Virus record (IMG/VR): IMGVR_UViG_3300050121_000020
Span: 1-24,649 of that record
DNA from: a virus
DNA: 24,649 nucleotides
Direction: 5' to 3' (one strand)
Part shown: positions 4,315 to 8,794 of the stretch, piece by piece
How positions within the stretch are numbered: position 1 is the first letter of the stretch
How the letters are laid out: every line of letters starts with the position of its first letter
Notes under the pieces: generated by a model
The model's input: only the letters and a program-made list of their open reading frames with translations
Told to the model about the DNA's origin: nothing
Databases searched by the model: none
Made by a program: the position numbers and the translations under genes

Positions 4315-4941
4315 TTATCCCGGGAATAGATTTTCACCCGGATAAAGATCATCCGCCGGCCTCGGTGAAATGCAACTGAAGATGTCAACCTTCTCAGACC
4401 AACCAGCTTCCCCTAGTCCTGGGTCAACTGTGACTGGCATCGGCTCGCTGATGTACCAGTTATATGTGCCCCCGGCCAACTGACAAAGGTTCTCGATGCA
4501 GTTGAACAGGAACTGGTCCCGGAACTGGATCGTGATCACTTTGGTACAGGCCACAACACTCTCCAGATTGATCTCCGGGTAATTCTTTGTAAACAAGTCC
4601 TTAATGATGAAGTCGATGGTCTGATTGGTGTAATCTTCGTTGACTAATATTTTCTGAGTTCTCCCAGTGTAACATGGCCCGGATAATTCAATGTACTTCA
4701 CCGGACCGTTTATGTTCTTGGCGGGGTTTAAAACCCAGCCCCGGAATATGTGACCATCCTGGTCAATCCTCACGTCGGAACCGTAAGGAAAAGCATCAAT
4801 CAGGTCGCTGGTGGACTTAGGGAGAATAAGACTAAACGACCCTGCCCGGTTGGCTACCGAGAGGGTCGTTTTACAGGTCTGATATGCTGCTACCGTGTAT
4901 GGGATTCCCCCTGGCGGTGTGATGACGATTGAGGTGGCCAT
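4315..4941 (-). CDS. tail hub/baseplate protein, N-terminal portion of a split hub
   Basis: This 208-aa protein has SIVITPPGGIPYTVAAYQTC at its start, a beta-rich body including IDQDGHIFRGWV (about 79-90), and LCQLAGGTYNWYIS near residues 152-165. Hub proteins placed just after the tape measure gene typically run on from a 'NWYI' element into an 'IHFF' element. Here that continuation is found at the start of the next gene, while this protein goes on with a Pro-rich tail that ends PADDLYPGENLFPG. Its ATG overlaps the tape measure stop by one base (TAATG), which suggests translational coupling. LYPG-type tail ends are known in Bacillota phage tail proteins, but their role is unclear. Confidence 0.65.
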   Translation of the reverse strand: MATSIVITPPGGIPYTVAAYQTCKTTLSVANRAGSFSLILPKSTSDLIDAFPYGSDVRIDQDGHIFRGWVLNPAKNINGPVKYIELSGPCYTGRTQKILVNEDYTNQTIDFIIKDLFTKNYPEINLESVVACTKVITIQFRDQFLFNCIENLCQLAGGTYNWYISEPMPVTVDPGLGEAGWSEKVDIFSCISPRPADDLYPGENLFPG

Positions 4942-7721
4942 TAGAACGACCCCCCAACGGACCGCCCAAATGTCTGAGCCACCTTGCGGCTCACTGTGGT
5001 TGCAAATTCATCCATACCCCGGCTTCCTACGATGGTGCCCTGGTTAATGATCGTTATCGAGGGTCCGTAGGTATTTCCTGCCATACTGCCGGAGACCGTC
5101 GCTGCGGCCATCGATGGGATTGCGGTGGCATGTATCCCGACGTTCATATCCGCACCGAGCCCAGTAATGGCATCGGTGACCAGACCCTTGCTTTTCTGAA
5201 TGCCCTTGGCCAGGCCGGACATCATATCTGGCATCCAGCTCTCATAGTCGGCAAGCGGTCCTTCATCAGGAACAGAGAAGTGAAGGAATTTTCTTATATC
5301 CTGTGCAACACCATTAATTGCCGCTCCGACTGCACCAGCAGCGCTTTTAATCCCAGATACTATTCCATTAATCATATCTTTGCCCCACTGAACCATCTGG
5401 CCCGGTAATCCCCTTATAAAGCTTATGGCGCCATCGAAGCCGCTTGAAACAGCGGATCCTATTGTACCCATTACGGAAGTTATGCCACTTTTCAAGCTGT
5501 TGAAAGCAGATACCCCCAAGCCATACAAAGTACCAGGAAGATTACGGAAAAAATTAACTACTCCGTTAAACGTATTTATCGCTCCGGTCACTAAGAGGCC
5601 CACTATACTAATTACTGCATCTTTAAGACTATTCCATGCTGATATAGCATCGTTTTTGATCCCTGTCCATAGCAACGTTAAAAACCCAGATATGGCCTGG
5701 CCTGCGCCAGTGAAGATCTGTTTTATGCCATCCCAGATCTTGCCGAAGGCATCCGACAGGTTATTAAATATCCCTTCTGCATCAGTTTTTAGTTTCCCAA
5801 AGTTCCCGGTTACTAGGTCAAGAATTAGCAGAATTGCACCTAAAAAGATATTTTTAATGACATCCCAAATCCCACCGAATACATTGCTTAACCCCTGCAT
5901 GATTAGATCTAGACCGTCTTTCATGCTGTTAAAAATATTAGTTATGCCATCTACGAAACCATTAACAATGCCCATTACCACCGAGACGATGTCGTTCCAT
6001 ATCGTAGTTAAGAAAGTTTCGATCCCTGTCCATACAGAAGTTAAGAAATCTTTGATCCCATTCCATAAGCCAACAAAAAACGCGCTTATTGGACCCCAAT
6101 TCTGGATTATTAAAAGGGGTATAAGTAAAAGACCACCTGTCAAAATCCCTAAGATCTCTGGATACCATGTAATAAAGAAACCTTTGAGCCAAGTCCAGAA
6201 CGATGAGAATGCATCGCTTACCGTTTTCCACAGATCAATAAAAAACTTACTTATCGTACCCCAATTCTTAGTAATTTCAAAAGCTATGAAAACCAATGCC
6301 GCAATCGCCAAAATAACCAGTCCTATGGTAGGCAACATAGATAATTTTAGCGTTATACTAAATGTCTGTGTAGCCATATTTAATATTGCTAACCCACCGA
6401 CCAGTATGCCTACAACAGTTACAATTGCAAGAACTGCCGCTGTAAATCCTGGGTTTTTTGAAATAAAATCAATTATTGGTACTAACATCTTTGTGAGGCT
6501 TCCTAATAGTTGTGTTATAACTGGCAGCAATGCGACTCCGATAGTTTCCTTCATAGTTTTAAATTCATTGCTCATTTGCTTTTGGTGCCCTTCAAAGGTA
6601 TTCGCTGCAGCCGATGCCTGGCCCCCAAATTTCTTATTAAGTTCATCAATAATTAATCCTTGTGCTCCAGCAGTGTCGCCTGTTTTAACCATCGTTTTAA
6701 TTGTTTCTTTTTGAGAAGACGAAAATTGTATTCCCATTTTCCCCAATGCCCCTAGCCCAGCGACAGGGTCATTAAGAGCCTTACCCAACGCCTTCGCAGT
6801 AGTCGGCAAATCTTTTCCCATTTTTTGAGATACATCTAACATCGCCTGGCTGGCCTCAGGGAAAACCTTCTTGCCAATGTTTGTAAATGTTGCAAGCACT
6901 GCTTCCCCTGATACGATGGTATCCTTAGAAAAAGTAGAAACTCCCTGCTCTTTTTGTGCCAGATCTTCCATTTGCTTCGCTGATAATCCGCAAGCATCGC
7001 CAGTTGATTTCACCGTCTGTCTTAGGGCTGCTTCTGAGCTTTCCATTTCCCCAGCACTATCAATTGCACTTTTTAAAAATCCTCCTACCGCTAGACCGAT
7101 AGCACCGAATGCAGGCTTGAGGTTATCCATGTTCAAGCCCATCTTCTGAGAGGCCTGGGCAAAAAGGCCTTGCTTTTTAGTGCCTTCATCAAGCTTGTTG
7201 CCTACAGTAGTCAAATCACTTTCCATAGTCTTTAATTTTCCAGTGGCATTATTTAGCTGGGTGGCATTGCCCTCAACTGCCTTGCTATTGCTCAGCACGA
7301 CTTTTTCAGAACTACTATATTTTGCAGCTAAATCATCATAGTCTTTTTTCAACTTCAAAGTGGCAGCATCGTTCTCGCCAAGGGTTGCCTTGCTTTGTTC
7401 CCATGCTGTTTTTGCAGACTCAACTTTCCCTTTTAAGTCCATCATAGCTTGGGAATTTTTTTCTAAGCTTGTTTTTGATTTATCCAGTTGTGCTTGGTAT
7501 TGCTCTACTATTTGCTTTTGAATATTGATTTTCTCGCCAAGAGCAGTGGCATTGGCTTTTAATCCATCAAGGCTGGTCCCCCAATCCTTAACACCGGCTA
7601 TACTTGATTTAAAACCACTGTCAATTGTACCTAGTTGTGCTTTTAGACTTTGCATACCTTGGGTGAATGAGCTATCTTCCATAGATATACGGATCGCCAT
7701 ACCTTGTACGTCTTCGCCCAT
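4941..7721 (-). CDS. tail tape measure protein (TP901-like)
   Basis: The 926-aa protein begins with a short globular segment, then a long coiled-coil region (about residues 50-190) rich in Lys, Gln and Glu. Around 200-400 is the TP901-type core (AFGAIGLAVGGFLKSAIDSA, then GEAVLATFTNIGKK and ALGKALNDPVAGLGALGK). Hydrophobic membrane-like helices follow between about 420 and 550, and a repetitive Trp/Phe-rich region (about 480-720) where the unit NWGxISxFFxxLW appears twice. The C-terminus has an amphipathic FLHFSVPDEGPLADYESWMP stretch often seen at the ends of such proteins. The length of this protein sets tail length, and its membrane helices may help DNA pass the host membrane. It follows a cargo insertion with its own terminators, so its transcription needs readthrough or antitermination. 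Confidence 0.92.
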   Translation of the reverse strand: MGEDVQGMAIRISMEDSSFTQGMQSLKAQLGTIDSGFKSSIAGVKDWGTSLDGLKANATALGEKINIQKQIVEQYQAQLDKSKTSLEKNSQAMMDLKGKVESAKTAWEQSKATLGENDAATLKLKKDYDDLAAKYSSSEKVVLSNSKAVEGNATQLNNATGKLKTMESDLTTVGNKLDEGTKKQGLFAQASQKMGLNMDNLKPAFGAIGLAVGGFLKSAIDSAGEMESSEAALRQTVKSTGDACGLSAKQMEDLAQKEQGVSTFSKDTIVSGEAVLATFTNIGKKVFPEASQAMLDVSQKMGKDLPTTAKALGKALNDPVAGLGALGKMGIQFSSSQKETIKTMVKTGDTAGAQGLIIDELNKKFGGQASAAANTFEGHQKQMSNEFKTMKETIGVALLPVITQLLGSLTKMLVPIIDFISKNPGFTAAVLAIVTVVGILVGGLAILNMATQTFSITLKLSMLPTIGLVILAIAALVFIAFEITKNWGTISKFFIDLWKTVSDAFSSFWTWLKGFFITWYPEILGILTGGLLLIPLLIIQNWGPISAFFVGLWNGIKDFLTSVWTGIETFLTTIWNDIVSVVMGIVNGFVDGITNIFNSMKDGLDLIMQGLSNVFGGIWDVIKNIFLGAILLILDLVTGNFGKLKTDAEGIFNNLSDAFGKIWDGIKQIFTGAGQAISGFLTLLWTGIKNDAISAWNSLKDAVISIVGLLVTGAINTFNGVVNFFRNLPGTLYGLGVSAFNSLKSGITSVMGTIGSAVSSGFDGAISFIRGLPGQMVQWGKDMINGIVSGIKSAAGAVGAAINGVAQDIRKFLHFSVPDEGPLADYESWMPDMMSGLAKGIQKSKGLVTDAITGLGADMNVGIHATAIPSMAAATVSGSMAGNTYGPSITIINQGTIVGSRGMDEFATTVSRKVAQTFGRSVGGSF

Positions 7722-7743
7722 TTATGTCACCTGCCTTTTAGAC

Positions 7744-7773
7744 AAAATAAAAAAGCCTTATTTCTAAGACCTT
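7744..7773 (-). terminator. second of two tandem terminators before the tape measure gene
   Basis: On the minus strand AAGGTCTTA and TAAGGCTT pair (8 bp, two G-U) around a GAAA tetraloop, followed by TTTTTTATTTT. It lies 23 bases before the tape measure start codon. Confidence 0.6.
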
Positions 7774-7781
7774 TGAACATG

Positions 7782-7807
7782 AAAAAGAGCCTATCTCTAA
7801 GCTCTTT
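7782..7807 (-). terminator. first of two tandem terminators after the cargo gene
   Basis: On the minus strand AAAGAGC and GCTCTTT form a 7-bp stem with a 10-base loop, and the second arm runs into a T-tract. It begins 6 bases after the stop of the cargo gene ending at 7813 and probably ends that transcript. Confidence 0.65.
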
Positions 7808-7812
7808 AGTGA

Positions 7813-8001
7813 TCATTTATCAAGTTTTTTGCTTATTTCTGCTAGTTTGTTAATTGTAACCCATTGATTCAAAAATGGTATTCTTGTAACTTCATTCATT
7901 TTTCCCAAAGTGCTCAAATCTGGTCTTACTGAAAATATTTTTCCCAAATTTTTCTTGTCAGACTCATTTAGAGAAAAAAGTTCAAACTCATTGATGAACA
8001 T
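7813..8001 (-). CDS. small cargo protein of unknown function (62 aa)
   Basis: The product is MFINEFELFSLNESDKKNLG followed by a short Leu/Ile-rich C-terminal helix ending AEISKKLDK. I do not recognise a family. The reading frame stays open upstream of the ATG for about 20 more codons (…FQGKDKKLEEDVE) without a standard start codon, so the true N-terminus could be longer and use an unusual start. The only ribosome binding site before the ATG is a weak GAAGAAG. It is AT-rich, lies between a promoter-like element and two terminators inside the tail operon, and so fits the definition of a moron gene. It could be a regulator, an anti-defence factor or an exclusion protein; nothing in the sequence decides this. 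Confidence 0.5.
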   Translation of the reverse strand: MFINEFELFSLNESDKKNLGKIFSVRPDLSTLGKMNEVTRIPFLNQWVTINKLAEISKKLDK

Positions 8002-8029
8002 TTCAACATCTTCTTCTAGTTTCTTATCC

Positions 8030-8194
8030 TTACCTTGAAACGTCTTTATCGCCCCCTTTATTTAAATACAATTCTTTACGCTTATTCCGGTTCCTTTTTA
8101 GTAAAAAGCATACAACTACAGCAAGTATTAATAGTGCAGGAATCGTTATTATCCCTCCACCAATGAATAATAGAATCATCACTATCACTATCAA
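8030..8194 (-). CDS. possible small single-pass membrane protein (about 54 aa)
   Basis: A minus-strand frame encodes a strongly hydrophobic helix (FIGGGIITIPALLILAVVV) followed by a basic tail (KRNRNKRK) and GGDKDVSR. The hydrophobic then positive layout is that of a small membrane protein. The start is unclear: TTG at 8194 lies about 15 bases after a GGGGG stretch (8210-8214), and an ATG at 8216 lies in another frame. If the G-run were four rather than five bases, that ATG would read directly into this frame as MGIIIIILIV. So this is either a real gene with a poor start, a gene with a phase-variable or mutated G-run, or a remnant. Confidence 0.35.
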   Translation of the reverse strand: MIVIVMILLFIGGGIITIPALLILAVVVCFLLKRNRNKRKELYLNKGGDKDVSR

Positions 8195-8228
8195 TATTAT
8201 TATTATAATCCCCCATTTCCTATTTCAT

Positions 8229-8255
8229 ATTATAGTGAAAAAAGGAAGATTGCAA
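8229..8255 (-). promoter_or_regulatory. promoter of the cargo island between chaperone and tape measure genes
   Basis: On the minus strand TTGCAA (8255-8250) and TATAAT (8234-8229) are separated by 15 bases. The -10 is a perfect consensus; the -35 matches four of six and the spacing is short. The -35 box lies immediately after the stop codon of the chaperone T frame, exactly where an inserted transcription unit would start. Together with the terminators at 7744-7807 it makes an independent unit. Confidence 0.5.
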
Positions 8256-8522
8256 CTATATCTGATCAATATATGCCGAAGGTTTATCCCATTCGCTTTT
8301 TTCATTTGTTGAGTTGTACAACATCAAATCAAGGTAGTAGAAAAAGTCCATCTCGTCGATAGATTCTAACGTCCACCCTGCATCATTTATTAAATCAAGA
8401 TATATTCCCTTGATAAAATCTGATGGAGATACAAGCTCATCCTCACCTACTTCCCCGTCTCCGTTGCGTTTGGGAATTGTTCGAGTTTTGCTCCCATCGT
8501 GCCCACTATGCCACCTACGCAT
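8256..8522 (-). CDS. tail assembly chaperone T extension, made by -1 frameshift from the upstream gene
   Basis: This frame is read as the C-terminal extension of the preceding chaperone rather than as a separate gene. The ATG at 8522 has no ribosome binding site and lies inside the upstream frame. The frameshift product runs from 8794 to 8256: 109 residues of the G protein, then 70 residues starting RNGDGEVGED. The T part has SPSDFIKGIYLDLINDAGW (about residues 15-33) and DFFYYLDLMLYN, a compact helical pattern seen in tail assembly chaperones. Such G/GT pairs bind the tape measure protein and recruit tail tube subunits during assembly, and they occur just upstream of the tape measure gene, as here apart from the cargo island. 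Confidence 0.8.
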   Translation of the reverse strand: MRRWHSGHDGSKTRTIPKRNGDGEVGEDELVSPSDFIKGIYLDLINDAGWTLESIDEMDFFYYLDLMLYNSTNEKSEWDKPSAYIDQI

Positions 8523-8794
8523 TCAAGTAACGTAGACTGTATTTTGTCAGCATCTAAGCCATCGTATATGTCATCAATAGTAAACTGCCTGCCGAAAAGG
8601 TCAACGATATAATTCATTAAACTATCTACATCAGCAGTTTTCATATTCTTAGTATCTATGATTTCAGTCATTGCAAGAGCGTTTCTGACTATTCGTGCTT
8701 TTGGACTTGGAGCAATGTACATCTTTTTCTCGGTTTTCTCTTTCCCGTTTTCATCAAACCCGACTGACTTTTCAAGAGTTAAAATGATAGCCAT
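8447..8794 (-). CDS. tail assembly chaperone G
   Basis: The 115-aa product begins MAIILTLEKSVGFDENGKEK and has a helical body with VDSLMNYIVDLFGRQFTIDD at about 55-74. Small acidic-to-neutral proteins of this size directly after the tail tube gene are the standard tail assembly chaperones of siphoviruses. The gene ends in ATETGK and a TAG stop; six codons before the end lies the slippery CCCAAAC. The unshifted form should be the more abundant product. Confidence 0.8.
   Translation of the reverse strand: MAIILTLEKSVGFDENGKEKTEKKMYIAPSPKARIVRNALAMTEIIDTKNMKTADVDSLMNYIVDLFGRQFTIDDIYDGLDADKIQSTLLECVGGIVGTMGAKLEQFPNATETGK
8468..8474 (-). promoter_or_regulatory. -1 programmed ribosomal frameshift site CCCAAAC
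   Basis: In the chaperone frame the codons read TTC CCA AAC. The last C with the next two codons gives C CCA AAC, which fits the X XXY YYZ rule. After a one-base backward slip the ribosome reads CCC AAA CGC and enters the open T frame. The frame then stays open for 70 codons. No separate Shine-Dalgarno exists for the T frame. Confidence 0.85.

Follow-up and report, generated by a model that had tools for sequence, protein, structure and literature searches.

Phage HK97 gp15 is a small protein that reportedly blocks DNA entry of other phages. In the HK97 record (NC_002167) a frameshifted tail assembly chaperone (GT), gp15 (a 62-aa 'moron product'), a terminator and the tape measure protein (TMP) follow one another in that order. 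Ltp of phage TP-J34 is a moron-like, membrane-attached exclusion lipoprotein of Gram-positive phages and targets TMP (PMC3952083), while the 83-aa moron protein Tab of phage JBD26 acts through TMP to block tail assembly (PMC10884400). In the published gene table of SPP1, 17.5* and gene 18 are 11 nt apart (PMC6316719). Here we describe an AT-rich island between the GT and TMP genes of a putative temperate clostridial siphophage. The stretch analyzed, referred to as the window, is the complete IMG/VR record IMGVR_UViG_3300050121_000020 (24,649 nt). The island is very probably a moron, an autonomous unit of promoter, gene and terminator.

All relevant genes, namely the tail genes, the island open reading frames (ORFs) and TMP, are on the minus strand. 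The gap between the GT stop codon (TAG, 8258-8256) and the TMP start (7721) is 534 nt (7722-8255). Its G+C content is 30.5% vs 46.1% for the window, which is close to the window minimum (equally low values in 0.3% of stretches of this size). Chaperone and TMP relatives, designated by L numbers, were gathered from IMG/VR and bacterial genomes and yielded 66 junctions with distinct DNA beside TMP and an identifiable GT end. GT and TMP were <40 nt apart in 44/66 junctions, and a terminator was found in 0/44. Five of the 66 (L051, L145, L149, L162, L169) had 51-56 nt with a terminator alone and no cargo. The other 17/66 had gaps of 150-2151 nt, with a TMP-adjacent terminator in 14/17. Taken together, a terminator directly preceded TMP in 19/22 wider gaps (Fisher p = 9e-14, uncorrected for kinship). 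The individual signals within the island are modest alone, and the strong evidence for a moron is this comparison.

An earlier note, made from the letters of the DNA alone, had proposed a moron of about 500 AT-rich bases with a TTGCAA/TATAAT motif directly after the chaperone stop, one or two small genes and two consecutive terminators before TMP. The gap and each of these parts were found, and the layout, the adjacency of the two genes in relatives and the atypical composition all support the proposal. The alignment with relatives that it recommended revealed the empty site. It held that conservation of the same small genes in relatives would overturn the moron reading; instead, slot cargos are unrelated from phage to phage, as expected of sporadic, interchangeable content. 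The description of the insertion point as unusual had to be dropped, because gp15 and its terminator occupy exactly this slot in HK97, and the slot is recurrent among the relatives (gap of at least 150 nt in 17/66). The parts of the island and its borders are as follows.

8447..8794, minus strand: tail assembly chaperone G, 115 aa (Pfam Phage_TAC_19, E = 4e-20)
8468..8474, minus strand: slippery heptamer CCCAAAC (C CCA AAC), a canonical -1 motif within both the G and GT frames
8256..8522, minus strand: GT extension frame, an 88-aa ORF reached by -1 frameshift, sharing 44-55% identity with relatives' second chaperone ORF; its stop codon forms the left island border
8229..8255, minus strand: promoter-like site TTGCAA-15-TATAAT, expected start ~8222
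8030..8194, minus strand: cargo ORF 1, predicted 54-aa transmembrane protein whose C-terminal tail is basic, with an uncertain TTG start
8052..8059, minus strand: AAAGGGGG, which resembles either an ORF 2 ribosome binding site or a +1 slip site and is followed at ideal spacing by ACG (8043-8041)
7813..8001, minus strand: cargo ORF 2, predicted 62-aa orphan from an ATG start; the open frame extends upstream to 8061 (82 codons)
7784..7807, minus strand: terminator-like hairpin 1, 10-bp stem with a GAGA loop, then T5
7744..7774, minus strand: terminator-like hairpin 2, 10-bp stem with a GAAA loop and U-rich tail (stem-loop 7774-7751), a recurrent late-operon element
4941..7721, minus strand: TMP, 926 aa (PHROG 58, E = 1e-78; 41% identity to L047 over 884 aa)

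The FPN residues encoded at the slip site (8474-8468) are present in most relatives.

The window resembles HK97 in the slot, in the order of gene, terminator and TMP, and in a small predicted membrane protein that has a single hydrophobic segment and a charged tail. The two differ in that HK97 has a Gram-negative host and one gene with one terminator, whereas the window has two ORFs and two hairpins. Exclusion is established for gp15 only. Unlike Ltp, the window ORFs match no Pfam family and no lipobox was seen in them by eye. The slot itself is empty in TP-J34, unlike in the window, as orf42 overlaps tmp by coordinates.

The promoter-like site begins directly after the GT stop codon, with TTGCAA at 8255-8250, a 15-nt spacer and TATAAT at 8234-8229. 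Its score was equalled in 5-7% of shuffles, which makes it weak when taken alone. Among relatives, promoter-like sites scoring at least 9.5 were found at the GT stop in 7/14 occupied junctions vs 0/34 empty ones.

ORF 1 has a strongly hydrophobic segment (best 19-residue hydropathy 2.94). A longest open frame of at least 82 codons occurred in 1.7% of dinucleotide shuffles, and such a frame plus a second of at least 60 codons in 0/2000. An ATG ORF at 8216-8082 (44 aa) was discarded because it is of low complexity and lies in a different frame from the transmembrane reading. The predicted 62-82 aa protein of ORF 2 is, by its sequence, an orphan, as the earlier note supposed for the 62-aa form. 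Searches of IMG/VR, of PDB sequences, of eight host genomes of relatives and of 83 and 391 genomes from the classes of G003 and G004 produced no homologue, and tblastn against phages and plasmids yielded none (a phage match at E = 3 was judged to be chance). A marginal match (E = 0.008) in the class genomes, within a 619-aa frame, was likewise judged to be chance. Neither island ORF exceeded the Pfam cut-off, and the best PHROG match of the 62-aa protein was only E = 0.21. Rfam yielded one match below threshold, with a plasmid antisense RNA (E = 0.65), which was rejected.

Hairpin 1 (7807-7784) has z = -2.9 and hairpin 2 (7774-7751, TTTTTTATTTT) has z = -2.2; both are followed by T tracts, and a consensus terminator scan picks up hairpin 1 only. 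Because ~2 terminator-like hairpins of this grade are expected by chance in every 3 kb of shuffled sequence, the hairpins carry weight through their position and through the relatives. The closest TMP relatives, L047 and L049, have a terminator similar to the 3' half of hairpin 1, GGCTCTTTTTCATG. The TMP-proximal terminator is the sole island DNA that is well matched in relatives (L026 and L053, 83-89% over 35-42 bp). Clostridial relatives L030, L053, L055, L137 and L139 share with the window the slot, the TMP-proximal terminator and a membrane or lipoprotein cargo, but their cargo proteins are unrelated to those of the window. The tandem terminators may record two rounds of cassette insertion or exchange.

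The exact TMP-proximal element (consensus AAGTCTTAGAAATAAGGCTTTTTTATTTT) was found in 42 further viral stretches (L087-L128). The 38 distinct occurrences with enough flank fell into 36 groups by flanking sequence. The general form, AAGTCTTAGARATAAGGCTTTTT(T)ATTTT, is represented by the window copy at 7774-7744, L087-L128, L218 and L219. The U-rich tail beyond the core is conserved and the flanks are not, while the invariance of the core is a product of the search pattern. The conserved loops are compatible with GNRA tetraloops. With gene identities assigned by eye, the element precedes portal, scaffold-like, TMP and other late genes, and lies at terminase-portal, pre-scaffold and pre-TMP borders. 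BLAST of the terminator against annotated phages gave weak partial matches only. What seems to be new is that the TMP-proximal terminator is a near-identical ~25-bp element found at several module borders in clostridial-phage late operons.

This distribution raises another explanation for the pre-TMP hairpin. It could be a control element of the late operon, either an attenuator or an RNA-processing site, that reduces TMP expression compared with tube and chaperone. The cargo would then have arrived upstream by recombination, and only hairpin 1, if any, would belong to the moron. The five junctions with a hairpin and no cargo fit this proposal, as does the placement of the element at three kinds of border amid unrelated flanks. 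Two matches were found in 118 class-mate genomes, and both lie between a terminase-like and a portal-like gene, which also fits. However, the hairpin is absent from all 44 tight GT-TMP junctions, so it is not required for TMP dosage, and the hairpins without cargo could be scars of lost morons. We felt that a control element was rather unlikely, and retained the moron reading for the island as a whole.

The cargos found in the slot of relatives are listed below. L003/L039 and L056 are additional occupied junctions outside the 66.

L024, L047, L049: DUF4429 plus SHOCT; by Pfam, neither domain is in the window ORFs
OB-fold-like lipoprotein, PHROG 9170, with a weak match to the Sie-like PHROG 8545 (E = 2.4e-4)
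Membrane-anchored DUF4352 protein
DUF4064 multi-span protein
63-aa transmembrane protein
HNH endonuclease
L003/L039, 4447-5779 (Ruminiclostridium sufflavum): LamG protein with signal peptide, then a transposase-like ORF; the contig ends before TMP

These cargos commonly combine a membrane anchor with a soluble domain. Membrane or secreted proteins make up 7/10 slot cargo families vs ~1/26 genes before the same terminator elsewhere, a post hoc comparison made by eye with a crude hydropathy cut-off, in which cargos were mixed with some core genes. In OR397123, an isolate of a C. difficile phage, a small protein occupies the corresponding position and is followed by a very long gene, annotated as 'Smc', which we take to be TMP.

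The hydrophobic cargo, the slot beside TMP and the prevalence there of cargos that are membrane proteins or secreted suggest a function. By analogy with gp15, the chances are about even that the cassette is a superinfection-exclusion moron expressed from the prophage. A unit carrying one or two small genes, together with a promoter and terminator(s) of its own, would have inserted between GT and TMP. Its weak sigma-A-type promoter would allow synthesis of the 54-aa membrane protein from a resident prophage whose late operon is silent. The 62-82 aa orphan would be produced along with it, either separately or fused to it, and the terminators would keep cassette transcription from entering the TMP gene. 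The membrane protein would then act like gp15, hindering TMP-dependent DNA entry of a related superinfecting phage at the cytoplasmic membrane.

Several observations weigh against a functional exclusion moron. Certain slot cargos are not membrane proteins (HNH, SHOCT and CxxC proteins). The phage is known from one IMG/VR record only, and its near-identical relatives L037, L062 and L063 (91-97% DNA identity) stop short of the island. Other relatives are present in genomes of Desulfosporosinus, Ruminiclostridium and Clostridium. The island ORFs have no similarity to PADLOC or other defence families, and BLASTP against gp15 showed no sequence homology (9.2 bits, E = 7.1). The 15-nt promoter spacer is suboptimal. 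ORF 1 requires a TTG start located 15 nt past its purine-rich stretch. ORF 2 has no standard start well spaced from AAAGGGGG (8059-8052), as the codon at the ideal distance is ACG and the first ATG is 50 nt downstream.

These non-standard or badly spaced starts could mean weak translation or a decaying cassette. If the cassette is a decaying moron, both frames are leftovers that are now poorly translated, which would agree with the lack of homologues and with the change of frame between ORF 1 and ORF 2 across a run of five G residues. Two long stop-free frames at 30% G+C, a combination absent from the 2000 shuffles, and an intact promoter-like site and terminators speak against decay, which we consider unlikely.

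The same G run allows the two ORFs to be read as one 126-aa protein. The frames overlap by 32 nt, and the register is right for a +1 slip of GGG on GGGGG (8056-8052), which would fuse the transmembrane segment to the 62-82 aa domain in the anchor-plus-domain layout common among other slot cargos. On the other hand, there is no conserved relative, the slip site has no known +1 motif or stop codon, and simple overlapping genes fit equally well. The AlphaFold model of the fusion was of low confidence (pLDDT 57.6) and too poor for a fold search. A single fused protein is very unlikely in our estimation.

An intracellular site of action for the cassette, instead of one at the membrane, is similarly improbable by a wide margin; an example would be an effect on tail assembly through TMP, like that of Tab. 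Tab is comparable as a small moron protein that acts via TMP. Its gene differs in location, being flanked by the terminase genes, is on the opposite strand and has a partner anti-Tab gene.

If the cassette is indeed an exclusion moron, the chaperone-TMP junction would be a predictable location of phage-exclusion genes among Bacillota phages, as it is for HK97, with the neighboring TMP suggesting the target. DUF4352, DUF4064, the OB-fold lipoproteins, DUF4429 plus SHOCT and the small transmembrane proteins would then be candidate families for exclusion assays. A broader proposal, to which we assign a low probability, is that clostridial phages use the ~25-bp terminator as a portable border for cargo exchange. 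The pre-TMP slot would serve mainly for membrane proteins acting on TMP-dependent DNA entry and would amount to a searchable shelf of undiscovered exclusion systems, with the window as an orphan example of two components or of a frameshift fusion. The recurrent terminator also raises the question of how late transcription gets past it to the TMP, portal and scaffold genes.

Elsewhere in the window, the major tail protein (9751-8852, minus strand) has a C-terminal bacterial Ig-like domain (Big_5, E = 4e-15). A lone plus-strand ORF near the left end (784-1248, 154 aa) has hydrophobic segments and runs opposite to all structural genes; it has no Pfam match and could be another moron. A single 755-aa ORF at 24523-22256 combines an SNF2-type helicase with an N6/N4 DNA methylase domain. 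A 227-aa ORF (18088-17405) that lies immediately upstream of the terminase genes has weak HNH and AAA/kinase-like matches in one frame.
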